From: Flavobacteriales bacterium
GTDB taxonomy: Bacteria > Bacteroidota > Bacteroidia > Flavobacteriales_D > Sanyastnellaceae
Direction of reading: 5' to 3'
Assembly (NCBI GenBank): GCA_018402085.1
Contig: JAGYJM010000002.1
Span: forward strand, 2,247,501-2,311,500
DNA length: 64,000 nt
Position 1 is the first letter of the stretch. Each line of letters begins with the position of its first letter. The notes below the pieces were generated by a model, which was given only the letters and a program-made list of their open reading frames with translations, was not told the DNA's origin and did not search any database. Below are positions 4,195 to 36,443 of this stretch, piece by piece. Both the position numbers and the translations under genes were made by a program.

Positions 4195-6351
4195 ATGCGA
4201 TTTATTCCGTTCTGTCTTTTTTTCTGCCTTGCGGCAGGATGGTCTTCTGCCCAGACCATCAGTGAAATCCAGGGCGAAGCGGCTGCTTCACCTTATGTTG
4301 GTGAAATCGTAACCACTTCAGGGATGGTTACGGCCCTTGACGACCTGGGGTACTTTATTCAGGATGGCGTCGGAATGTGGTCTGCCATTTATGTGTACGA
4401 CAGTGATTTCACCCCTGCTCTGGGCGATGAAATTGAGCTGACAGCAGAGGTGGAGGAGTTTTACGAGCTGACAGAGCTTAAGAACGTTTCAGCCTTGAGC
4501 GTGCTTTCATCAGGCAATACCCTTCCTGAACCGGAAGTGTTGCCTACGGGTGAGATCAGCGATGAAGGATGGGAAAGTGTTTTAGTTCGCGCTGAAGAAG
4601 CCATTTGCACAAATGCAGACCTGGGCTTCGGTGAGTTTGAGCTGAATGATGGCAGCGGCACCATCGCCGTTGACGATTTGTTCTATCTGTTTGAAGCAAG
4701 CGAAGACGTGAGTTACACGGTTACCGGGCCTTGTTACTACTCATTCGGTGCTTTCAAAATTGTACCTCGCGATGCCAATGATGTTCAGATTGCAGAACCG
4801 CTGTTTTTCACTACGGATCCTGAAGAGTTTGAAATGACCGGCAGTTCAATGGAGATCCGATGGGAGACCAACGCACCTTCAAATAGTGTTATCGAGTACG
4901 GACTGACAGATCAGTACGAGCTTGGCGTGGCGGCAGACGAAACGCAAGTTACCGAGCATCTGATTGAACTTACCGATCTCGAGGAAGCCACTTCATATCA
5001 CATCCGGGTATTCTCAGAGTCAGGCGACGATAGCACGCCGCTCTTTACTCGTGTGGTGAGCACGACCTCATCGGTTGGAGGTGACATTCAGGTCTGGTTC
5101 AATCATGAGGTTGACAACAGTGTTGCTACCGAAACCGAGGCAGTTTCAACAAACTTCATCACAGATACGATCGTACATTATATAGGTAGCGCTCAGCATA
5201 CGCTGGATATTCAGATTTACGATTTGCTCGATGTGAATCCGATTCTGATAACCGCAGTCAATCAAGCTCATGCAAACGGTGTAGCAGTGCGTTTCATTTC
5301 TGACCTTGAAACTGAGAACCCGGCCCTTGAAAACCTGAGCGACGACATTCCGCTGCTCAAAGGGAATACCGACGGCATCATGCACAACAAGTTTCTTGTG
5401 GCAGACGCTGAATACCCTGAACTCGCGTGGGTCATGACCGGCTCAATGAACTGGACCTTCAACAACCTTGGCTGGGACTACAACAACGTAATTCTCGTTC
5501 GCGATCAGGCGCTGGCCCGCACTTACACCCGTGAGTTCAACGAGATGTGGGGCAGTGAAACCGAGACTCCGGATGAGGCAAATGCGCGTTTTGGTCCGGA
5601 TAAAACCGACAATACTGCGCATAAATTTCTCATTGGCGGACGTCCGATTGAGTGTTACTTCTCCCCGAGCGACGGCACCACAGCTCAGATCCGGGAGCGG
5701 ATCAACAATGCTGAGCAGAGCATCCACCTCGGACTGATGCTGATTACCGAGAACAGTCTGGGAACTGCGCTCGTGAATGCTTTCAACAACGGCGTAGATG
5801 TTACGGGTATCATCGACTACGTTGAATTCAATGGAAGCGAGTTCGAGTTTCTTGTGGATAATGGACTGAACGTGATAGATTACCAGAACGAAGACGGCAC
5901 TTCATGGCCTGATGGACCGGTGCTACACCACAAGTATTGTATTATTGACCATGCGGGTGCGCAGCCGGTTTTGGTCAACGGTAGTCACAACTGGACGGCG
6001 TCGGCTGAATCGATCAATGACGAAAATACCCTGATCATCGAAGATGCCGACCTTACCAACCAATTCTATCAGGAGTGGCTCGAGCGCTGGAATGAACAGA
6101 CTTCGGTAAGTGTTAAGGAGTATGCTGCACCGATGCTCACAGCTTACCCGAATCCGTTTACCGATGCCCTCCGAATGGAAGCACCCACGAACGGAAGGCT
6201 GGTGATTTACGATGCATCCGGACGTCAACTTGCAGAAATGCAGGTTCAGCAGGGCACGCAGATTATTGATCTATCCAACTCACCTTCAGGTATTTACCAC
6301 CTAACCTTCTTCGGAGAAGGGGTTCGACACGTGCGCGTCATTCGGCAGTAG
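4195..6351 (+). CDS. Secreted phospholipase-D-fold nuclease with T9SS type A tail
   Basis: An exported protein of 718 residues. ATG 4195 was chosen over the in-frame TTG at 4150 because it begins a clean signal peptide (MRFIPFCLFF...SSAQ). Order of domains: an OB-fold-like region (VGEIVTTSGMVTAL), a fibronectin-III/phosphoesterase-N-like module (ETNAPSNSVIEYGLT), then two phospholipase-D motifs, HNKFLVAD with GSMNWT and HHKYCIID with GSHNWT. Paired HKD motifs make one active site in Nuc-type nucleases and phospholipases. The C-terminus (YPNPFTDAL ... SGIYHLTF) is a Por secretion type A signal, so the protein leaves the cell through the type IX system. With the OB-fold, a secreted nuclease is more likely than a lipase; that choice is inference. 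Its 3' end overlaps the convergent methyltransferase gene by 14 bp. Confidence 0.88.
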   Translation: MRFIPFCLFFCLAAGWSSAQTISEIQGEAAASPYVGEIVTTSGMVTALDDLGYFIQDGVGMWSAIYVYDSDFTPALGDEIELTAEVEEFYELTELKNVSALSVLSSGNTLPEPEVLPTGEISDEGWESVLVRAEEAICTNADLGFGEFELNDGSGTIAVDDLFYLFEASEDVSYTVTGPCYYSFGAFKIVPRDANDVQIAEPLFFTTDPEEFEMTGSSMEIRWETNAPSNSVIEYGLTDQYELGVAADETQVTEHLIELTDLEEATSYHIRVFSESGDDSTPLFTRVVSTTSSVGGDIQVWFNHEVDNSVATETEAVSTNFITDTIVHYIGSAQHTLDIQIYDLLDVNPILITAVNQAHANGVAVRFISDLETENPALENLSDDIPLLKGNTDGIMHNKFLVADAEYPELAWVMTGSMNWTFNNLGWDYNNVILVRDQALARTYTREFNEMWGSETETPDEANARFGPDKTDNTAHKFLIGGRPIECYFSPSDGTTAQIRERINNAEQSIHLGLMLITENSLGTALVNAFNNGVDVTGIIDYVEFNGSEFEFLVDNGLNVIDYQNEDGTSWPDGPVLHHKYCIIDHAGAQPVLVNGSHNWTASAESINDENTLIIEDADLTNQFYQEWLERWNEQTSVSVKEYAAPMLTAYPNPFTDALRMEAPTNGRLVIYDASGRQLAEMQVQQGTQIIDLSNSPSGIYHLTFFGEGVRHVRVIRQ

Positions 6352-7507
6352 AAGCCTTTTGCTTTTTCTTGCTGCCTTCGTAAAGTTCAAAACCTGCATA
6401 AACACATTCGAGTCGACCATTGAAGAGCTTATGCTTTTCATAGGGTTTGAATCCTATGTGATGATAAGCTTCGAGGTTTGAGCTGATGACCCAGGCACGG
6501 CAGCCGGTAAAGTCATGTTTAAGCTTCGATCCGATCTCACCGTAAAAACGGTGGATGTCATCAGGTTGTAGCCGTTCGCCGTATGGTGGGTTCAAAACCA
6601 CCACTCCGGGTTCGCCGGGAGGCTGATGCTTCATGAAATCATGCTCCTCTACGCTGATGTCATGGGGCCAGGCAATTTTACTCAATGCTTCATTGGTTTG
6701 CTTTACCGCCTTGTAATCAATGTCACTGGCCACAATCCTGACCTTTTCCTTTGAGCGATTCTGCCAGAGCTTCAGTCGTTCTTCTTCCACAATTTGTTGA
6801 TCCAGATTATTCCAGTTCAGGAAACCGTAGTTGAGCCTGAACCACTGCGAGGGCAGGTTAGCAGCCATCATAGCAGCCTCCATGACGAGTGTGCCTGATC
6901 CACACATAGGTACATAGAGGGGTTCATTCGGTTTCCACCCGGAATAGGCGAGCATTCCTGCGGCGAGGCATTCATTGAGCGGCGCCATGGCTCCTTTGGG
7001 GCGGTAACCACGTCGGTGTAAACTATCGCCTGAACTGTCGAGCGAAATAGTTACGCTGTCGCCAGACACCCTCAGGTGGATCCGTATGTCAGGATTTTCG
7101 AGCTTGACTGATGGGCGTTTCCCCGTTTTTCGACGGAAGCGATCCGCAATGGCGTCTTTGAGGCGGAGGGCCGTAAAATGTGAATGTTGAAAATGATCGC
7201 TGTTGACAACAGCATCAATGGCCATGGTTGAACGCGTGCCCAAGATCTTCTCCCAGGGCTGTTGAAGTCCGAGTTTATAGAGTTCATCGGTTGAGTTGGC
7301 TTTACCTTTAAACCAGGGAATGAGCACCCGAATACCATAGCGTGATGCCAGATTCACCCTAACCATGCCGCGGTAATCAGTGCTAAAGTAGGCGCCTCTG
7401 GTAGACACCTCTACATCTTCCATACCGAGCTCTTCGAGTTCTTTACCGAGCAGAGGCTCGAGTCCGGCCAACGTTGTAACGTACAGCCGCTTGTTATCTT
7501 CTTTCAT
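6338..7507 (-). CDS. THUMP-domain class I rRNA methyltransferase (RlmL N-terminal-like)
   Basis: An RNA guanine-N2 methyltransferase of 389 residues that resembles the RlmL half of E. coli RlmKL. ATG 7507 was chosen because it forms TAATG with the stop of the SUI1 gene and begins the conserved KRLYVTTLAGLEPLL. A ferredoxin-like/THUMP region (about 1-155) is followed by a Rossmann methyltransferase with PMCGSGTLVMEAA (motif I) and the catalytic VVLNPPYGERL (NPPY, specific for exocyclic amine methylation). The RlmK half is absent, as is normal in Bacteroidota. Coupling with a SUI1 factor suggests a translation-related operon. Confidence 0.93.
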   Translation of the reverse strand: MKEDNKRLYVTTLAGLEPLLGKELEELGMEDVEVSTRGAYFSTDYRGMVRVNLASRYGIRVLIPWFKGKANSTDELYKLGLQQPWEKILGTRSTMAIDAVVNSDHFQHSHFTALRLKDAIADRFRRKTGKRPSVKLENPDIRIHLRVSGDSVTISLDSSGDSLHRRGYRPKGAMAPLNECLAAGMLAYSGWKPNEPLYVPMCGSGTLVMEAAMMAANLPSQWFRLNYGFLNWNNLDQQIVEEERLKLWQNRSKEKVRIVASDIDYKAVKQTNEALSKIAWPHDISVEEHDFMKHQPPGEPGVVVLNPPYGERLQPDDIHRFYGEIGSKLKHDFTGCRAWVISSNLEAYHHIGFKPYEKHKLFNGRLECVYAGFELYEGSKKKQKASTAE

Positions 7508-24780: not shown

Positions 24781-24920
24781 GCGCAAAAAGAGAGGGACGC
24801 CTGATAGGCGTCCGGGAATATTCGGTCAACGCGAATTTCGGTTCATACGGATAGGGACGCCACCCTGGCGTCCGGGAATATTCGGTTGACGAGCATTGTT
24901 GTTTTCACGGAGGCCAGTCG
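24781..24920 (-). repeat. Two reverse copies of the 60-bp hairpin repeat
   Basis: Two GGACGCC/GGCGTCC hairpins start 60 bp apart (24795 and 24855), each followed by GGGAATATTCGG; the stretch ATTCGGTTGACGAGCATTG and GTTGTTTTCACGG is the reverse complement of the first unit of the array at 35.7 kb. The rest of 24755-24984 is GTTGGTG repeats and CCCCGATC repeats, with no gene. Confidence 0.85.
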
Positions 24921-24984: not shown

Positions 24985-25386
24985 TCAAACAATGCCTACG
25001 AGGCGTTTGAGGAGGTAGACGTCGAGAGGTTTCTCGAGCACCTTGATGATAAGGGGGTCTTGCTCGGCCTTCTCAATGTCGCTTCGATCAATGCTTGAAG
25101 AGAGCATGAACACTTTGAATGCATTTTTCACCTCAGAAGGTAATTCTTCAAAAATCTTCAGAGTTTCGAACCCGTCTACAGAAGGCATCTGAATATCCAA
25201 AAGCAGAATATTGGAGATTTCACAGAGCTCACTGTGATTCTTTCTGATGTAGGCTACAGAAGAAGGGCCGTCAGTAAACGACAAAATCTCTGCATCGAGA
25301 TTAGCGAGCTTTAGCAGCTTGGTATTGACCACAATGTCGATATCATTGTCATCTACAAGAAAGATATTCAGCGACCGGCCGTTCAT
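24985..25386 (-). CDS. Stand-alone response regulator receiver protein
   Basis: A single CheY-like receiver domain of 133 residues with no output domain. The acidic pocket is VDDNDID, the phospho-acceptor Asp is in ILLLDIQMPSVDG, the switch Ser in VFMLSSSID and the conserved Lys in VLEKPLD. It is the last gene of a five-gene reverse operon and overlaps the receiver-kinase hybrid gene by 4 bp, so it likely takes phosphate from the two kinases upstream and relays it, or acts as a sink. Confidence 0.93.
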   Translation of the reverse strand: MNGRSLNIFLVDDNDIDIVVNTKLLKLANLDAEILSFTDGPSSVAYIRKNHSELCEISNILLLDIQMPSVDGFETLKIFEELPSEVKNAFKVFMLSSSIDRSDIEKAEQDPLIIKVLEKPLDVYLLKRLVGIV

Positions 25387-26471
25387 TTTCGAATGGGTAA
25401 TTTTATTTCAAAGCGCGATCCTTCACCTTGTTCAGATTGAACCACTATTTCTCCGTTCATTTTTTCCGTTGCTTCTTTCACAATATACAACCCCAAGCCG
25501 GTTCCGAGGTGATTCACTGAAGAACGATAAAACATTTCAAAGACTTTTTTCTGTTCTTCTCTTGCGATTCCCGTACCGTTGTCTTGCACAGTAAGCACTA
25601 CTTCACCGCCTTCGGCTTTGACGTCAACTTTGACCCACTGTGTTTCTTTTTCTTCATCGCGGTACTTGATCGCATTAGACACCAGGTTATTGAAGATCAT
25701 TTTAAGTCTGAGCTCATCAAGGTAAACATCTTCAAGCTGAGACACGTGCTTCTGAATCTCAACATTTGTGCCTCCTTCAAAGTAGCGATAGTGCTCAACC
25801 ACCTCATCTACGAGCAGTTCAAAGTCAATTTTAGATATAAACTCTCCTTGCTTAACGTTCTGGTAGTAATTGATGATGTTCTGTACGAAAATATCGAGCC
25901 TTCCAACCGTTCGTTCTATCATACCGAAGTATTCTCCGGCCTTACCATCTATATTCTCAGCGCGTGCTACTTTCAGTACTCCGAGGATACTCACCAATGG
26001 AGCCCGCAGGTCATGTGATGCACTGTAGACGAATTTCTCAAGTTCATTGTAGGCCTTCTGCAGCTCTTCGTTCTTCTCCTGGATCTCCCGTCGGCTCTCG
26101 TAAAGCTCGTAGGCGTTTTCGATGGTCATTTTGAGCTCTTGCTCATTCCACGGCTTCGCGATGTAGCGGTACACCTGACCTTTATTGATCGCGTCGATCA
26201 CCGCCTCGATATCGGCATAACCGGTAAGGAGCATCCGAACAGGATCGGGGAAGTCAGGAATAATGAGTTCGAAGAATTCAACCCCACTGAGGTTGGGCAT
26301 CTTCTGGTCAGAGATGACCACATGAACTTCGTTTTCACTGAGTATTTGGACCGCTTCTCCCGCTTCTGTGGTGACAAAGACATTGTAATCTCTGCGGAAT
26401 GCAGCCTTAAACGAAGTCAAGTTGTGTTCTTCGTCATCGAGATAAAGTACGCTTATCTTCTTGTCGGCCAT
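25383..26471 (-). CDS. Hybrid receiver - histidine kinase
   Basis: A cytoplasmic protein of 362 residues in the order receiver then kinase. Residues 1-120 are a receiver (YLDDEEHN, VVISDQKMPNLSG, LLTGYAD, IAKPW) of the kind found in RpfG/HupR proteins. A short coiled coil (about 120-145) leads to HisKA with SASHDLRAPLVSI (phospho-His) and HATPase with N box NNLVSNAIKYRD, G1 VQDNGTGI and GTGLGLYIVKEA. There is no sensor domain, so its activity is probably set by phosphorylation of its own receiver, for example by the 7TMR-DISM kinase encoded just upstream (10-bp gap). Confidence 0.93.
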   Translation of the reverse strand: MADKKISVLYLDDEEHNLTSFKAAFRRDYNVFVTTEAGEAVQILSENEVHVVISDQKMPNLSGVEFFELIIPDFPDPVRMLLTGYADIEAVIDAINKGQVYRYIAKPWNEQELKMTIENAYELYESRREIQEKNEELQKAYNELEKFVYSASHDLRAPLVSILGVLKVARAENIDGKAGEYFGMIERTVGRLDIFVQNIINYYQNVKQGEFISKIDFELLVDEVVEHYRYFEGGTNVEIQKHVSQLEDVYLDELRLKMIFNNLVSNAIKYRDEEKETQWVKVDVKAEGGEVVLTVQDNGTGIAREEQKKVFEMFYRSSVNHLGTGLGLYIVKEATEKMNGEIVVQSEQGEGSRFEIKLPIRK

Positions 26472-26481
26472 TGTAGAAGGG

Positions 26482-28605
26482 TCACTTGCTAGTTCCTGTG
26501 CGGTTCAGCGGCAAAGTAATAATAAATTCAGTGCCTTCGCCCTCTTTTGTTTGCACATCAATTGTACCGTTATGGTCATTGATGATGCCGAGCACAATGC
26601 TCAGCCCCAGTCCTGTACCTTTCCCTACCTCCTTCGTTGTAAAAAACGGGTCAAAAATTCGCGCTTTGACACGTTCAGGAATGCCGGTGCCATTATCAGC
26701 TATGCGCACTACGATGCTTCCTCCCACCAATTCAGAAGACACAGAGACCTTTCGTTCTTCATAAGGCTTGCCGGTTGCGGCCGTAGCTTGAAGCGCATTT
26801 GAAATGATGTTCATGAAAACCTGGTTGAGCTTACCCGGGTAGCACTCCATTTCAGGAAGGTTTTCGGCAAGTTTTGTTTCGACCGGGGCTTCACTTTTGA
26901 TGGTGCTTTTCAGGATGATCAGGGTAGATCGAATACCTTCATTGATATCAGCTTTTTTCAGGGCATCTTCATCGAGCCGTGAGAAAACCCGAAGTCCTTT
27001 TACGATTTCAGCGGTGCGCGAAGCACCGTCTCGAATACCCCGAAGCAATTGATCAATCTCTTCGCGTATGTAAGGCAATTCGAGTTCTTCTGCGAGCACT
27101 CTGGCCTCGTCTATTCTTGTTTGTCGCTCCTCAGGTGCGGCCTCATCAACCGCCTGCCATGCGGTGAGGATACGGATCATATCATCAATGTCGCGCTTCA
27201 GCGGCTCGATATTGCTCGACACAAAATTGATAGGGTTGTTCAGTTCATGAGCGATACCCGCTGTCATCTGACCAAGCGAGGCCATCTTTTCGGCATCTAC
27301 CAGTTGGGCTTGTGCAGCTCTGAGTTCGCTCAATGTGACATTCAGTTCCTCATTGGAATTTGCCAGCTCGCGGGTGCGCTCGTTTACCTTTCTCTCAAGT
27401 ACAATATTCTGCTGCGTGATGATCTGCTCATTATCACGAAGCGCTCTGAGCTTGGCCTCTTGCTCGCGTTCCTTTTCTCGCTTGAGCTGGTTGATTCGGT
27501 CAGCCAGGGCAAATGACAGCAGTACGACCTCAAGGGCTGACCCTATGGGCAAGGCATACTGGGTCACATTGTTATAAGGTAACACCCCCAAATCACGAAG
27601 TACGAATACCGTAACACCAATGAGGAAGATCGACCACGCGATCAAAAAGTACAATGCCGGATGAAAACCTTTTCTCCAGATGCGTGCAGCCACAATCACC
27701 AGCAAGAAAGCGGCAATGGCGCAAAAATTGATCAGTTTGTATGCCAGCACAAGGTGCCCGGTAATGGTGAGCACGCCGGCTATGGTGTATACCCCGAGGT
27801 AGAAATTAAGCAGGTAGTGCCACCACCGGGCATACTGACGGGTGTGTAGATAATGCTGGGCAAAGATGACCGTGGTAACACCGCTCAATACTCCGCAGAA
27901 ATGCGCACTGCGCACACTGAGCCATTGGTTCTCAGGCCAGAAATAAACATTCCCGTATCCATTCAACACCAGTTGGGTTAGTCCGACAAAGAAAATGTAG
28001 AGTACATAATACAGGTAGTTATTATCGCGTACCGAAAACCAGATGAACAGGTTGTAAAGGAACATTACAAGAATGATTCCGGCGTACACCCCAAAGAAGA
28101 TGTCTTGACGGTTCTGCTGCCAGTAGAGTTCTTCTTTTGGCGCAATCGAAAATGGCAAGATCAATTGCTTGCCACTGCGTATCCGGAGGTAAATTGCAGA
28201 GGGCGTCTCGAGTGAACTGATCGCAAAGAGAAAGTTTGGCACCGGCTCAGCACGACTCCCGAAACTGTATGCTTCACCTGAGGTATCGGCATGAACGATT
28301 TCACCTTCAGCCACATGATAAAAAAAAAGGCTGTCAATGTTGGGCGCCTGGAGTTCGAAGTAGGAGTTCTCCCCCACCGGTGGTATATCAATCCGCAGCC
28401 ATACCGGATGATCGAGAACCCCCAGGTTCGGAACCTCATCAGCGATACGCCTGAAGGCTTCCTTCCGAGCATCATTGAACTGCAGGGTGCAAGAGGTGTC
28501 TTGATAAACAAACACCCTATGGTCATCGCTATCATTGATGGCAAATAAAGCCGGGGTAATGAACAACGTCAGAAGGCACAGAATGGGGCGGAGACTGCGA
28601 TTCAT
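26482..28605 (-). CDS. 7TMR-DISM sensor histidine kinase
   Basis: A 707-residue membrane sensor kinase. After a signal peptide (ending near LFAIND), residues 25-160 form a 7TMR-DISM extracellular domain of jelly-roll type, a fold related to carbohydrate-binding modules. Seven hydrophobic helices (about 170-370), a coiled coil and HisKA (GIAHELNNPINFVSSNI) follow. The HATPase has NIISNALQA, IADNGTGIP and GKGTGLGLSIV. It is therefore a receptor for an external small ligand. It overlaps the GNAT-like gene by 4 bp, coupling a possible signal-making enzyme to its possible sensor; that link is inference. Confidence 0.93.
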   Translation of the reverse strand: MNRSLRPILCLLTLFITPALFAINDSDDHRVFVYQDTSCTLQFNDARKEAFRRIADEVPNLGVLDHPVWLRIDIPPVGENSYFELQAPNIDSLFFYHVAEGEIVHADTSGEAYSFGSRAEPVPNFLFAISSLETPSAIYLRIRSGKQLILPFSIAPKEELYWQQNRQDIFFGVYAGIILVMFLYNLFIWFSVRDNNYLYYVLYIFFVGLTQLVLNGYGNVYFWPENQWLSVRSAHFCGVLSGVTTVIFAQHYLHTRQYARWWHYLLNFYLGVYTIAGVLTITGHLVLAYKLINFCAIAAFLLVIVAARIWRKGFHPALYFLIAWSIFLIGVTVFVLRDLGVLPYNNVTQYALPIGSALEVVLLSFALADRINQLKREKEREQEAKLRALRDNEQIITQQNIVLERKVNERTRELANSNEELNVTLSELRAAQAQLVDAEKMASLGQMTAGIAHELNNPINFVSSNIEPLKRDIDDMIRILTAWQAVDEAAPEERQTRIDEARVLAEELELPYIREEIDQLLRGIRDGASRTAEIVKGLRVFSRLDEDALKKADINEGIRSTLIILKSTIKSEAPVETKLAENLPEMECYPGKLNQVFMNIISNALQATAATGKPYEERKVSVSSELVGGSIVVRIADNGTGIPERVKARIFDPFFTTKEVGKGTGLGLSIVLGIINDHNGTIDVQTKEGEGTEFIITLPLNRTGTSK

Positions 28606-29345
28606 TTCTTTACGCTCAGGTCAAAGTGCACATTCACACTTCCTTTCGGTCCTGATACGGAAATTACTTTACCGGGGTTACTGCGCAGCTCGAGCATCTC
28701 TTTACGAAGCTCATCATTCATCTTCGTTTCGTTATCAGGATGCAAGTAATGGGCAACCGTGGCGATGAGGCGTTCATTTGGGTAAGGAATACCACCTTTA
28801 TCACCTATGCTTTCAATGTTGAAAAAGCCGAAATCAGGCATCCATCTTCTCGTCACAGGTGACGACAGGGCGAGTAAGTGGCGTATTTCCAGCTTTTCTG
28901 CGAGACTGACGCCACAGTTAATCACCAGCTTGCTCCCAATACCAAGTCCGGCCACCTCAACTGAATTCCACAGTGCACAGAGTTCACCGCACCCTTCTAT
29001 CTGCATATCGGCGATGATGGCATCAATGTTGGGGTCATGCTTTCGCACAGGCTGCTGAAGCGGAATATCGGTTTCTTCCGAAGCCATGTGAATGCGTGCG
29101 CCACCATAAAGTTTGCCCCCATCCGGAGATAAGGCTGCAATCAGGTATACATTCGGGTCATCCAACCAGCCGTCATTGGCCGAGATAACCTTTCCCACTT
29201 TGTGGTGAGCCAGTACAGCAGCATGGCCACTGAGAAAGCGAGTACTCAATTCAAGGTCGTCTACGGCGCGGATGGCGCGAAACAAGACGGAGCGAATTCT
29301 GGCAGACGCCGTACGAACTCTTGGATTACTTACGGAAGAGCCCAT
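28602..29345 (-). CDS. GNAT/LuxI-like acyltransferase of unknown substrate
   Basis: A 247-residue protein with features of the GNAT fold in the arrangement seen in N-acyl amino acid synthases and LuxI-type enzymes: an N-terminal helix with Arg (LSTRFLSG), a strand YLIAALSPDGGKLYGGARIHM, then CGELCALWNSVEVAGLGIGSKLV, which resembles the acyl-CoA pyrophosphate loop, and LLALSSPVTRRWMPDFGF near the end. No signal peptide. It sits between the E1-like gene (20-bp overlap) and a sensor kinase gene (4-bp overlap). A role in making an acylated signal or modifying a protein is inference; the family assignment itself is moderate. Confidence 0.6.
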   Translation of the reverse strand: MGSSVSNPRVRTASARIRSVLFRAIRAVDDLELSTRFLSGHAAVLAHHKVGKVISANDGWLDDPNVYLIAALSPDGGKLYGGARIHMASEETDIPLQQPVRKHDPNIDAIIADMQIEGCGELCALWNSVEVAGLGIGSKLVINCGVSLAEKLEIRHLLALSSPVTRRWMPDFGFFNIESIGDKGGIPYPNERLIATVAHYLHPDNETKMNDELRKEMLELRSNPGKVISVSGPKGSVNVHFDLSVKK

Positions 29346-30408
29346 CGGCGTCTATAAATTTTCTACCCTTAACATTTGGCTGTCCGAGCAAAATCATTCG
29401 TGCAACTTGCACGGCAATACCTGCTCCTGCCGTCACTTCTGATCCTATTTGAGGCCATCTACTGATCGTTTTGCCCATCTCTGTCAGTGAGACCTTCATC
29501 CGCTCGCTGATCTCATCGGGGGTCATGATCTTTGCTACCGTTTCTTGAGACCACTCACCGGTTTCAATCAACTTCAGTGCCTCCTCATCGGTGATCCGAC
29601 CGTGAAGAATTCCTGCAGCACGATCCAGATCAAAGCGCTCTACATCAAGCATGCCGCGATCTGAGGTCTCCATCACCACCGGAATACCTCGTTTGCGCGC
29701 CTCCCAGCGTGTAAGGATCTTGACCGGCAGACTGTCACATTCTTCAATCAGCAAATCCAGTGGAGCCACATCGCCAAAAAAGGTGTCAACGTTTTCTTTG
29801 GTGACTCCATCGTGAAATACTTCTACGTTCAGATAAGGGTCTATCTCAGCAATCTCCCGGGCCACGACGGTTGCTTTGGGAAGCCCGAGATTCACCAGGC
29901 TACTGCGTATCCTGTTGAGATTTGACAACTCCAGGGTATCATAATCTGCTATGCGAAGGGTACCCCCGCAGCGCTCCATCGCCAGCGCCATTGCAACACC
30001 AGAACCCACGCTAAGGCCAATGACCCCCACGCGTTTCGTCTGCAAAATGCGTTGCTCATCTGCCGTGATCTTGTGCATATTCCGGTTAGTGCGCACTTCT
30101 CTGAATTCAGCCTCTTTCAGTAAATGCACCAGCATGTTTCGCCAGGGGTAATAGACCCAACAACCATAGCGCTCCGGGTTTTCACCTAAACGGGCACGGA
30201 CAGCAAGCTCAACATCTGCTTCGCTCCAGTCGTATCCCGGCCGACGCAATGTGACAAGTTCTGAGATTTGAGACTCGATGGTATCGAGAATTATGGGCTG
30301 CCGATCTTTGAGCAACTGTGCTAACTCAGGACTTCCGCCTTCATAAAACTCCGGGCGCATTACGCGCTCACCCACCTGCGGACTATCTTTGCTGATCAGC
30401 TCTTTCAT
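29326..30408 (-). CDS. ThiF/E1-like adenylyltransferase (Rv1355c-type)
   Basis: A 360-residue protein whose residues about 125-310 are a ThiF/MoeB-type nucleotide-binding domain: RVGVIGLSVGSGVAMALA (glycine loop), ADYDTLELSNLNRI (Asp and Arg for ATP) and LLIEECDSLPVK (adenylation Asp). It adenylates a carboxyl group, classically the C-terminus of a ubiquitin-like sulfur carrier. The CxxC zinc motifs and an obvious catalytic Cys are missing, and no ubiquitin-like protein is nearby, so the substrate may be a small acid or a protein tail. The roughly 115-residue N-terminal region is unassigned. It resembles the ThiF part of mycobacterial Rv1355c but lacks its nitroreductase half. First gene of the signalling operon. 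Confidence 0.8.
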   Translation of the reverse strand: MKELISKDSPQVGERVMRPEFYEGGSPELAQLLKDRQPIILDTIESQISELVTLRRPGYDWSEADVELAVRARLGENPERYGCWVYYPWRNMLVHLLKEAEFREVRTNRNMHKITADEQRILQTKRVGVIGLSVGSGVAMALAMERCGGTLRIADYDTLELSNLNRIRSSLVNLGLPKATVVAREIAEIDPYLNVEVFHDGVTKENVDTFFGDVAPLDLLIEECDSLPVKILTRWEARKRGIPVVMETSDRGMLDVERFDLDRAAGILHGRITDEEALKLIETGEWSQETVAKIMTPDEISERMKVSLTEMGKTISRWPQIGSEVTAGAGIAVQVARMILLGQPNVKGRKFIDADGLFRK

Positions 30409-30547
30409 AACATTTTATTCCCTAAAGCAAGGTGCCTAAAACACACATTACCCTGAACGCGCTCACAAGAAGTTCTTAACATCTTAAGGTGAGCAGAATG
30501 AAACCTCATTCTTATTCATCCGTAAGTGCTCCTACATTTTGTCACTT

Positions 30548-31009
30548 ATGGAGTACCTGAATGAAAAGCCGGTTTGTATTGTTGAAAAACGCTTCCTGAG
30601 CGCCTGCAAAGAGGCTATGAGCGATATTTTTACCATCTTCCCCGTATCGAGCAGCGCAGAGCTTTGGAAACACAGCGAACAGAAAAGCATCAGCTTGATC
30701 GTCAGCAGCAAAAACCTTCTCGGCGAAAAGCCTTTTGGACTGCTGAAAGGGCTGGCTGCGCTGCATTCATCAGCCGTCTTACTCTTTCTCTCCCAAAACG
30801 AGAATGCAGACTATCTCATCCCGATGGTCAACAGTGTCAACCGTATCCGCATCGTGACAAATGCGCAGTATGACGCAGGGCTTCGCAGGGCCGGTGCCGA
30901 TGCATTTTCTCTTTTTCTCGAAAGCCGTCGCAAAGACAAATTAATTGAAGAGCTCACCTCTGAAAATGAGCAATATGAGTTTATGCTGCGCCAGTCTTTG
31001 TTGTCTTGA
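30548..31009 (+). CDS. Receiver-like protein lacking the phospho-acceptor Asp
   Basis: A 153-residue protein; ATG 30548 is preferred to the in-frame TTG at 30539. The alternating strands and helices follow a CheY-like pattern: VCIVEKRFL where the acidic pair would be, LIVSSKNLL where the phospho-Asp would be, VLLFLSQ for the switch Ser, and a final helix RRAGADAFSLFL. The acidic triad is absent, so it cannot be phosphorylated in the normal way. It ends in a predicted coiled coil (KDKLIEELTSENEQYEFML). It is divergent from the E1/kinase operon and 79 bp ahead of a kinase-like gene, so a scaffolding or sequestering role in that pathway is likely. The receiver assignment rests on pattern only. 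Confidence 0.5.
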   Translation: MEYLNEKPVCIVEKRFLSACKEAMSDIFTIFPVSSSAELWKHSEQKSISLIVSSKNLLGEKPFGLLKGLAALHSSAVLLFLSQNENADYLIPMVNSVNRIRIVTNAQYDAGLRRAGADAFSLFLESRRKDKLIEELTSENEQYEFMLRQSLLS

Positions 31010-31087
31010 ACAGCCGTAACAACTTTCTCTTGTTCACATCTTATTTTGCAGCAGTTGCCGGAGGATTCTAACTTAGTCTTCTGAGGT

Positions 31088-32038
31088 ATGGAGAACTTTC
31101 ACCCGCACATTAGCTGGACGTACTCACTGAAAGAGCAGCGGTTTTTATTCTTTTCAGACAGGGGTTTCATTGAAACTCAAAAGGGTACTGACCAACTTAG
31201 CCTATGGTTTGAGCGTACTTCCGGAATTACCCGTATACCCGCCGTTGCGGGCAAATCATTCAGGGTAATCGGCGCCCCCGGCGGCGGGCATGAGCGAGAG
31301 TACTTCATTTGCACACGGGGCATATTTCTCTCAGAAGATCCGGCGGTGGTATCAGGCATTTGCGAGTTGCTGATTCCGCAAGACATTGGTTATTTCGAAG
31401 AGACAACACCTGAAGATATTGAGCGTATCATCCATTCATGGGAGCAAAAATCTCCGAAAAACGCCGTTCATGCCCTCCGTGCTCCGGTGAATCGCATCAG
31501 AGGCATCGCAGCCATCCTCGAGCATGAACTGGAACTCAGTGCTGAACATGAAAAGTTGCTCCAGTACCTGAAGTCTTCGTCAGAACGTCTGCGGAAGCTC
31601 ACTTTGCACCTTACCCGCAAACCGTATGATGCCAATAAAGCTTATACTTCAGTGGTTGAAGTGGTTCAAGACGCCGTAAAAACGGCGGATGAATACAATT
31701 CTTACACCATTCATATTGAAGCTGATGAACACAGAAGCGGACTGAATCAGAGGGCGGCACGCTGCCTCTTCAACCTCGCCGTAAATATCCTGACAACAGC
31801 TCCTTCACCGTATGCTGTAAAAGTACGCCAGCTCGATGATGCCGTCGTTGCCGTAGACTTCACTACGAAAGAGGGTATGCACCCGCCTGACCTGAACAAT
31901 GAACACGGTGCGCCGGAAGGGAGCCTCGAGCTCTTTCGTCAGGTCGAAGAAGCGCTGGTCATTCGGCGGGTTGACGAAAACGGACGTTTATGGCATCGGA
32001 TCGTGTTGCCCGCAACTGCGCTGGTTCCGATCAATTGA
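31088..32038 (+). CDS. Histidine-kinase-like protein with degenerate ATP-binding domain
   Basis: A 316-residue protein without membrane segments. Residues 1-115 look like a PAS-type domain. Residues 120-175 resemble HisKA: H128 in VHALRAPVNRIRGIAAILEHE aligns with HDLRAPL, but Ala replaces the Asp/Glu needed for phosphotransfer chemistry. The remainder resembles HATPase_c, with a remnant N box (CLFNLAVNIL) but no DxGxG or GLGL motif, so ATP binding is doubtful. It probably acts as a phosphoacceptor (Hpt-like) or as a dimerisation partner for the kinases across the promoter. It overlaps the convergent DUF4924 gene by 8 bp. Confidence 0.65.
   Translation: MENFHPHISWTYSLKEQRFLFFSDRGFIETQKGTDQLSLWFERTSGITRIPAVAGKSFRVIGAPGGGHEREYFICTRGIFLSEDPAVVSGICELLIPQDIGYFEETTPEDIERIIHSWEQKSPKNAVHALRAPVNRIRGIAAILEHELELSAEHEKLLQYLKSSSERLRKLTLHLTRKPYDANKAYTSVVEVVQDAVKTADEYNSYTIHIEADEHRSGLNQRAARCLFNLAVNILTTAPSPYAVKVRQLDDAVVAVDFTTKEGMHPPDLNNEHGAPEGSLELFRQVEEALVIRRVDENGRLWHRIVLPATALVPIN
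31672..31691 (+). repeat. GGATG-type hairpin element inside a CDS
   Basis: Stem CGCCGT, loop AAAA, stem ACGGCG, tail GATG. In frame (AVKTADE) in the kinase-like gene. Confidence 0.7.
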
Positions 32039-35713: not shown

Positions 35714-36340
35714 TAGGGACGCCTTCCAGGCGTCCCTATCCGTGAAAACAACAACGCTCGTCAACCGAAAATTCCCGGACGCCTGGGAGGCGTCCCTATC
35801 CGTGAAAACAACAACGCTCGAAATCCGAAAATTCTCGGACGCCTGGGAGGCGTCCCTATCCGTGAAAACAACAACGCTCGAAATCCGAAAATTCTCGGAC
35901 GCACTGGGAGGCGTCCTATCCGTGAAAACAATAACGCTCGAAATCCGAAAATTCTCGGACGCCTGGGAGGCGTCCCTATCCGTGAAAACAACAACGCTCG
36001 AAATCCGAAAATTCTCGGACGCCTGGGAGGCGTCCCTATCCGTGAAAACAACAACGCTCGAAATCCGAAAATTCCCGGACGCCTGGGAGGCGTCCCTCTC
36101 GGTGGATACGACAACTCTCGAAATCCGAAAATTCTCGGACGGCTGGAAGGCCGTCCCTCTCGGTGGATACGACAACTCTCGAAATCCGAATATCCCCGGA
36201 CGCCTGGGAGGCGTCCCTATCCGTGAAAACAACAACGCTCGAAATCCGAAAATTCCCGGACGCCTGGGAGGCGTCCCTATCCGTGAAAACAACAACGCTC
36301 GAAATCCGAAAATTCTCGGACGCCTGGGAGGCGTCCCTAT
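35714..36340. repeat. 60-bp tandem repeat array with central hairpins
   Basis: About eleven units of 60 bp (one of 61). Each unit is AAATCCGAAAATTCTCGG, then a hairpin GGACGCCTGGGAGGCGTCC, then CTATCCGTGAAAACAACAACG. Variants preserve pairing: one unit has GGACGGC/GCCGTCC, another has compensating indels (35901-35916), and two units carry the right flank CTCTCGGTGGATACGACAA. Long reading frames on both strands are a consequence of the period being a multiple of three. 35599-35713 and 36341-36443 hold no gene. Confidence 0.95.
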
Positions 36341-36443
36341 CAACTGGCAACATTTCGCACCGCTGCGCGCAAGGATGCGCGCCCGGCAGCCCCCACCCTT
36401 TCGGCTTCAGGCGTTTACGTACCTTGAGACACAATCATAGCGC

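Follow-up and report, generated by a model that had tools for sequence, protein, structure and literature searches.

A candidate synthase–receptor signalling cassette with an N-acyltransferase, a ThiF-type enzyme and a 7TMR-DISM kinase in Bacteroidota

We analysed a 64,000-nucleotide stretch of DNA (the window) from a Flavobacteriales bacterium of the family Sanyastnellaceae (assembly GCA_018402085.1, contig JAGYJM010000002.1), whose genome comprises 3.78 Mb in two contigs. An operon in this window is, as judged from sequence, probably a self-contained synthase–receptor signalling cassette that works with a small acylated molecule. Its five genes, all on the reverse strand, encode a predicted ThiF-type adenylating cyclase that has no fused flavin oxidase (29326–30408; NF005901, PF00899), an N-acyltransferase of the GNAT superfamily with FeeM/LuxI-type proteins as its nearest structures (28602–29345; assigned from a model and structural matches), a 7TMR-DISM sensor histidine kinase that is the proposed receptor (26482–28605; Pfam domains and intact motifs), a REC-HisKA-HATPase protein that is the second kinase of the proposed relay (25383–26471; Pfam), and a single receiver domain with an intact Asp and Lys (24985–25386; PF00072, 4.4e-10). 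Two further genes are divergent, on the forward strand. All seven open reading frames have the coordinates given in the initial annotation, and the operon genes overlap by 20, 4 and 4 bp, with one gap of 10 bp, as stated there. The decisive observation comes from a genus that we take to be Algoriphagus, where the acyltransferase and the sensor half of the kinase share a history that conflicts with that of the kinase core, the receivers and ThiF. Gene content, folds, domain anatomy, recurrence and this joint exchange are demonstrated below; the signal itself is best read as an N-acyl amino acid whose carboxyl group is masked, by an oxazolone-type ring or in another way.

The Algoriphagus comparison used 51 complete loci, 44 with the oxidase fused to ThiF and 7 without it. 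(Of 72 genomes, 54 matched; 49 loci were fetched and three were available earlier, and G333, which is in fragments, and G339 were left out.) The parts of the cassette differ greatly in how well they are conserved. The divergent receiver has the highest mean identity (86%), followed by the DISM kinase core (84%), the second kinase (74%) and ThiF (60%); the values are lower in the acyltransferase (55%), the seven-transmembrane (7TM) domain (50%) and the ectodomain (25%). The pairwise identities of the acyltransferase, the ectodomain and the 7TM domain intercorrelate at 0.87–0.92, compared to 0.50–0.57 with ThiF and 0.18–0.27 with the kinase core; for the acyltransferase, the values are 0.90 with the ectodomain, 0.92 with the 7TM domain and 0.27 with the kinase core. 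When the acyltransferase data were placed on the trees of the other parts, the log-likelihood dropped by 55 with that of the ectodomain and by 112 with that of the 7TM domain, compared to 2637 with ThiF and 4172 with the kinase core. This conflict had first been seen in a smaller Cyclobacteriaceae set.

The exchange is most directly seen in loci L113 and L114, in which the divergent receiver, ThiF and both kinase cores are 97–100% identical, while the acyltransferase is 46%, the ectodomain 19% and the 7TM domain 37% identical. At the DNA level, identity falls from 88–100% to 43–55% at the start of the acyltransferase gene and returns to 88–98% near the junction between the 7TM domain and the kinase. 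Across the genus, five acyltransferase types map one-to-one onto five ectodomain types without a mixed combination in the 51 loci, at thresholds of 70% and 30% identity that were picked after the data were seen. Types 1 and 2 occur in the seven oxidase-free loci and types 3–5 in the 44 loci with the oxidase. On the tree of the kinases and receivers, the acyltransferase type changes 17 times, a number that tree error may inflate, compared to three changes for the presence of the flavin-dependent oxidase (FDO) in ThiF. All parts tested are under purifying selection, with a ratio of nonsynonymous to synonymous substitution rates (dN/dS) of at most 0.13 in 10 close pairs. Positive selection on the ectodomain was considered and rejected, its dN/dS being 0.06–0.13 in those pairs, although it was the highest, or tied for the highest, of six parts in 7 of the 10. 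The same pattern of exchange is known from peptide pherotype loci.

The arrangement is not due to chance, because the same gene set recurs in other families of Bacteroidota. ThiF was found in 10 of 296 genomes of the phylum, including that of the window, and the acyltransferase, the DISM kinase and the REC-kinase lie beside it in all nine relatives. Seeding with a profile of the acyltransferase returned 13 of 395 genomes, namely the ten already known and three more, and in all 13 (again counting the window's own) the DISM kinase was adjacent or one gene away. The co-occurrence that the initial annotation had proposed as a check on its reading is thus found from either enzyme. A wider search confirmed 586 places, the best 80 of which are the named loci used here; the acyltransferase is present in 75 of these 80, accompanied by the DISM kinase in 70 and, at a strict threshold, by the REC-kinase as well in 60. 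Order and strand are almost constant in the 60 complete sets: ThiF–acyltransferase–DISM–REC-kinase in 42, acyltransferase–ThiF–DISM–REC-kinase in 17, and another order in one. Among the ten loci without the acyltransferase–DISM pair, four (L032, L074, L091 and L092) are cut by contig ends and six (L030, L041, L047, L061, L062 and L084) are uncut. Of the ten that have the pair and no strict REC-kinase, four have a longer REC-kinase-like neighbour, three lie near a contig end and three have none. The lone receiver was seen in 36 of the 80 loci at the threshold used.

Four groups were sampled more densely. In Algoriphagus, ThiF, the acyltransferase, the DISM kinase and the REC-kinase stand together in 51 of 52 loci, and the remaining locus is cut. 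A family denoted f3, which we take as Sphingobacteriaceae, has the enzymes and the DISM kinase in 59 of 60 loci (71 of 161 genomes matched; 60 loci were fetched, with three earlier ones uncounted, and 56 complete loci were used). The window's own family has the cassette in 18 of 20 fetched loci, the other two being cut by contig ends (95 of 114 genomes matched). In a further family, f4, 106 of 344 genomes matched, from which 30 short and 20 longer loci were taken; together with L240 and L241, this gave 22 long loci. The DISM kinase was seen in 23 of the 30 short loci, which have flanks of 1.5 kb; five of the seven without it have ThiF there, and these loci are too short to tell. Counted by genome, ThiF is carried by 49 of 50 near-complete genomes of Algoriphagus, by 69 of 146 genomes of f3 and, in the family of the window, by 44 of 50.

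The acyltransferase was recognised by its predicted fold. The protein has no match in Pfam or NCBIfam at E up to 1, the autoinducer synthase family included, and no match to the sequence of a solved structure at E up to 10, so that a fold prediction was needed. An AlphaFold model built from 48 sequences had a mean predicted local distance difference test score (pLDDT) of 92.6. Of 999 chains compared with this model, FeeM (2g0b) was the best, with a Z-score of 17.1, followed by LasI (15.6), 1xeb (15.2) and BjaI (15.0); Foldseek also placed FeeM first, at modest TM-scores of 0.52/0.65. The initial annotation had called the protein GNAT/LuxI-like and had named an unrelated fold as an outcome that would speak against its idea; the model belongs to the GNAT superfamily. 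FeeM and BjaI are likewise the nearest structures of TyzA (PMC10404671). We propose that the modelled protein would be an N-acyl amino acid synthase; its fold is also compatible with an ordinary GNAT enzyme. The fold is shared with LuxI synthases and the family match is absent, and the protein is not filed as a LuxI system.

The ThiF protein gave a match to NCBIfam model NF005901, the Rv1355c family, with E 1.2e-125, aligned to positions 24–339 of the 722-residue model; the second half of the model is uncovered, and the bit score of 420.5 is below the full-length cut-off of 476. It also matches PF00899 in Pfam (8e-19). As initially annotated, it has neither zinc nor thioester cysteines, having three scattered Cys and no CxxC. 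Residue D225 is invariant in ten aligned sequences, aligns with an Asp of TcdA, and is taken by us to be the adenylation Asp; it corresponds to D217 of TrzS by motif position and not by direct alignment. On these sequence features, we assign the protein as a putative cyclase of the Rv1355c/TrzS lineage. Rv1355c is TrzS, which together with the acyltransferase TrzA makes N-acyl tryptazolones, according to PMC12856293: TrzA acylates tryptophan, the ThiF domain of TrzS cyclises the product with ATP, and a fused flavin-dependent oxidase desaturates it, while the cyclised saturated compound is produced under limited oxygen or when the oxidase is mutated. By analogy with that saturated compound, a ThiF protein without an oxidase would be expected to give a saturated ring. 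Of the 80 named loci, 27 carry the oxidase as a fusion with ThiF. At E 0.001, neither the window's genome nor six other genomes with an unfused ThiF gave a homologue of this oxidase half, and because the oxidase is missing there, we do not class the window as a complete oxazolone pathway. An FDO encoded elsewhere in the window's genome was also considered: PF00881 gave three open frames of 192–238 residues, and the FDO half of L019 matched nothing, so this candidate was dropped. Outside Bacteroidota, two Brevibacillus loci (L047 and L061) have a ThiF of the same family, 50–52% identical, that follows an unmatched protein of 283–351 residues and is accompanied by neither the cassette acyltransferase nor the DISM kinase.

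ThiF is not the constant part of the cassette. In two genomes of f4, G126 and G715, the cassette lacks ThiF (a ThiF profile gave no match in G126 and two weak matches elsewhere in G715, the best at 2.5e-14), and a 213-residue methyltransferase of the ICMT family (PF04140; 1.5e-19 and 3.5e-18) sits between the acyltransferase and the DISM kinase. All 22 longer f4 loci have the acyltransferase and the DISM kinase, together with ThiF in nine, ICMT in seven and neither in six. (L242, which is from another family, was not counted.) The ICMT genes in this slot are at L240:7703–8344 (reverse strand) and L241:9262–9903 (forward strand), and also in L276, L278, L282, L283 and L287; none of this kind was seen in 218 other loci scanned. 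In five of the six loci with neither enzyme, no gene on the same strand is listed in the slot; one of these five, L273, has a gap of 650 bp there, in which an ICMT was not clearly found. In the sixth, the slot of L291 (4012–5619) holds a 535-residue protein that by eye resembles an FAD-linked oxidase. Since the ThiF slot may hold ICMT or nothing, the acyltransferase and the DISM kinase are the core. The initial proposal that an adenylating enzyme and an acyltransferase jointly make the signal needs correction in one respect: the constant partner of the acyltransferase is the DISM kinase, not ThiF. A cyclase or a carboxyl methylase in one slot fits an N-acyl amino acid with a masked carboxylate, and such a product would explain why ThiF is dispensable and the acyltransferase and the receptor are not. 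A methyl-ester signal has a precedent in 3-hydroxypalmitic acid methyl ester (3-OH-PAME).

The proposed receptor has the domain anatomy of a 7TMR-DISM sensor kinase. As the initial annotation had stated, it combines an external ligand domain, a 7TM domain and a kinase: Pfam gave PF07696 (7TMR-DISMED2) at 5.4e-20, PF07695 (7TMR-DISM_7TM) at 1e-51, HisKA at 2.7e-7 and HATPase_c at 1.5e-24, and the AHELNNP motif and the N, G1 and G2 boxes are intact. The extracytoplasmic ectodomain comprises residues 22–160 (28126–28542, reverse strand) and the 7TM domain residues 165–372 (27490–28113, reverse strand). In the scheme that we propose, the acyltransferase would attach a fatty acyl chain to an amino acid, and ThiF would activate the carboxylate with ATP and cyclise the product. 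In the window, the product would probably be a saturated oxazolone or a similar ring, because the desaturating oxidase is missing. The molecule would then reach the periplasm or the outside of the cell, where the sensor half of the DISM kinase (ectodomain and 7TM domain) would detect it; this kinase would feed a phosphorelay via the REC-kinase and the single receivers, presumably in that direction. In Algoriphagus, the acyltransferase and the sensor half, exchanged together, may act as pherotypes. The initial suggestion of an operon that encodes the synthesis of an acylated signal together with the receptor for it thus gains support from recurrence, fold and covariation in Algoriphagus, all of it read from sequence. 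A wider reading, to which we give even chances, is that these loci form an undescribed chemical pheromone family in Bacteroidota, with a fixed core of FeeM-like synthase and 7TMR-DISM kinase, pherotypes traded between species, and an interchangeable tailoring slot (a ThiF cyclase, a ThiF–oxidase, an ICMT carboxyl methylase, an FAD-linked oxidase, or none) that masks or changes the carboxyl end.

We considered the possibility that the stretch from acyltransferase to sensor is simply a recombination hot spot, in which parts travel together by contact and bear no relation through a ligand. The acyltransferase adjoins the sensor in Algoriphagus, and tract-wise recombination alone would link them. 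As a control, we used f3, in which both gene orders occur. Among 25 loci with the Algoriphagus order, the partial correlations of the acyltransferase were 0.77 with the ectodomain and 0.80 with the 7TM domain, compared to −0.13 and 0.23 for ThiF. In 30 loci with ThiF in between (31 before L183 was dropped, since its DISM frame without a kinase core distorted the kinase column), the acyltransferase was no longer distinct from the kinase core, correlating at 0.75 with the 7TM domain and 0.74 with the core, and its partial correlations fell to 0.23 (ectodomain) and 0.33 (7TM), no better than those of ThiF, which here adjoins the sensor (0.38 and 0.33). The difference between L177 and L184 also takes in ThiF. 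Free exchange of the acyltransferase and the sensor is thus seen in loci in which the two adjoin, with little of it where ThiF intervenes; adjacency has an effect. Nevertheless, the tie of the acyltransferase persists across ThiF: values as high were reached in 0 of 1000 permutations for the 7TM domain and 7 of 1000 for the ectodomain, although permutations do not model phylogeny. Boundaries that fall at the start of the acyltransferase and near the 7TM/kinase junction, and the lack of any mixed pair of acyltransferase and ectodomain despite many changes of type, also argue against mere contact, and we consider linkage alone an unlikely explanation. In the wider Bacteroidota set (70 rows, 60 of them complete and used; L063, whose DISM gene is split, was excluded), the partial correlations of either the acyltransferase or ThiF with the ectodomain or the 7TM domain were weak, at 0.19–0.26, perhaps due to saturation of the ectodomains, and genus-level data were therefore needed. 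A functional tie between acyltransferase and sensor is the better reading, not the only one. In addition to the effect of adjacency, several points count against the proposed synthase–receptor cassette: the trees of the acyltransferase, the ectodomain and the 7TM domain still differ by the approximately unbiased (AU) test, the type thresholds were set late, the ectodomain of L124 and L125 has diverged alone within one type (dS 1.75 vs. 0.13–0.43 elsewhere), FeeM scores just 1.9 Z units above the ordinary N-acyltransferase 1xeb, and L030 and L041 (of the 80 loci) and L179 (of the set of 60) have the acyltransferase and ThiF with no DISM kinase nearby.

Another possibility is that the N-acyl amino acid or oxazolone lipid is itself the purpose of the enzymes, as an antimicrobial, surfactant or stress lipid, and that the kinases control this pathway in response to an unrelated external cue. 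In favour of this, the function of oxazolones is unsettled and no kinase figures in the mycobacterial pathways as PMC12856293 presents them, and two Dyadobacter loci (L062 and L084) have ThiF beside another weakly GNAT-like protein, with neither the cassette acyltransferase nor a cassette kinase. However, the sensor half tracks the identity of the acyltransferase in the 51 Algoriphagus loci and the kinase core does not, which would not be so for an unrelated cue, and the tailoring enzyme varies while the acyltransferase and the DISM kinase persist; we see only a small chance that this explanation is correct. Still less probable, and in our view very remote, is that ThiF acts as an E1-like enzyme by which the signalling proteins receive a ubiquitin-like or peptide modification, and that the acyltransferase acetylates proteins. 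ThiF does belong to the superfamily and weakly matches UBA5 and E1 domains, but no ubiquitin-like protein, E2 or JAB domain was found by Pfam among the ten window proteins scanned, the match to Rv1355c is far stronger, and the characterised member of that family has a small N-acyl amino acid as its substrate. Moreover, the slot holds an ICMT, another predicted enzyme, or nothing in some relatives.

Returning to the proposed signalling cassette, the kinase core of the DISM protein covaries with the kinase half of the second kinase (r 0.79 in Algoriphagus and 0.86 in the wider set), as would be expected of partners. Pfam bore out the receiver–kinase hybrid and the lone receiver of the initial annotation, and also its statement that the cassette has no output domain, none being encoded among its proteins. 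In L232–L239, eight loci of the window's own family from genomes of 1.7–2.5 Mb, the position after the DISM kinase, usually that of the REC-kinase, is occupied by a short REC protein. A REC protein of 517–572 residues, PorX-like by size, lies upstream of the cassette, at about 4700–6700, in L036, L039, L040 and a further 16 of the 80 loci (Cyclobacteriaceae-type).

The two divergent genes were initially described as a receiver-like protein without the phospho-Asp and a kinase-like protein without ATP motifs, and both descriptions agree with our results. The first protein (30539–31009, forward strand) has no Pfam match; besides the phospho-Asp, its acid pocket and Lys are gone. By alignment, position and C-terminal tail, it is, at the level of sequence, a degenerate orthologue of the divergent receiver (dREC) of relatives, which appears intact in the seven that were aligned. 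It is fast-evolving, with about 30% identity within its clade, and it retains the tail EFMLRQSLLS. The pattern EF[LMI]LRQ.[LM]LS ends 54 of 65 divergent receivers in the 80 loci, and a longer form, (D/E)Q(L/Y)EF(L/M)LRQxLLS, is seen in the window (30965–31006) and in the receivers of L016–L107, being kept even in the degenerate receiver. The tail is perhaps a docking peptide. The second protein (pHK; 31088–32038, forward strand) has a PAS-like domain, a dimerisation and histidine phosphotransfer (DHp) domain and a degenerate catalytic ATP-binding (CA) domain. Only HisKA was matched (1.5e-6), with no ATPase domain, and the H-box His is kept (HALRAPV), H128 being invariant in five sequences. Its model, built from five sequences, reached a pLDDT of 66 and matched PAS kinases and ChpT; the confidence being low, just its PAS–DHp–CA outline was used. 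Among the loci scanned for this protein, it occurs only in those of the window's own family. Our guess is that it is a phosphotransfer protein.

A terminator-like hairpin of eight pairs (six G-C) with a T-rich tail lies 3′ of the operon (24795–24813, reverse strand), a weak feature, since the region has 11 such sites compared to a mean of 8.0 in shuffled sequences. A promoter scan gave sites no more frequent than in shuffles. At 35717–36341 of the window, a 60-bp unit is repeated in tandem (10.4 copies, 93% matches), which gives rise to long spurious open reading frames on both strands.

In the quorum systems CqsA/CqsS, LuxM/LuxN, RpfF/RpfC and PhcB/PhcS, the synthase of a small molecule is paired with a histidine kinase in the membrane. 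As in the cassette, the genes for synthase and sensor kinase are linked, and a phosphorelay is involved; the cassette differs in its synthase chemistry, its 7TMR-DISM receptor, its phylum and the lack of a DNA-binding output. In comQXPA, agrBDC and comCDE, which are peptide pherotype loci, the signal gene and the sensor half are likewise exchanged together, while the kinase half and the flanks are conserved, although their signal is a ribosomal peptide and that proposed here would be an enzyme-made small molecule. LuxI synthases share the fold of the acyltransferase, to which FeeM is nearer, and no Pfam family match connects them; no LuxR-type domain was found by Pfam among the ten window proteins scanned. 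CqsS and LuxN are treated in PMC8895600. The closest relatives in chemistry are TrzAS (Rv1356c–Rv1355c), TyzACB and OxzAB, in which, as in the window, an N-acyltransferase of FeeM-type fold stands beside a ThiF cyclase of the same lineage (PMC12856293 and PMC10404671). The ThiF–flavin oxidase fusion of TrzAS is also present in some relatives of the window and not in the window itself. The window operon, in contrast, has a receptor kinase and a relay, and the word "kinase" occurs nowhere in PMC12856293. The initial statement that no system with this gene set had been described thus holds for the whole cassette, which we found in none of the literature searched, and does not hold for the chemistry of ThiF and acyltransferase, described for these three pathways. 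No published small-molecule synthase–receptor system of this kind from Bacteroidota was found in the literature searched, which mostly excluded subscription journals.

If this reading is correct, Bacteroidota would gain a small-molecule signalling family of their own, patchy in the phylum and near-universal in some groups, and a ligand class would be assigned to a 7TMR-DISM receptor. It would also give a physiological role to oxazolone-type metabolites, the function of which the authors of the TrzAS study name as a major unresolved question (PMC12856293). Pherotype theory would become testable with enzymatic signals, and if the synthase–sensor block is indeed traded as pherotypes, related bacteria would speak mutually private dialects.

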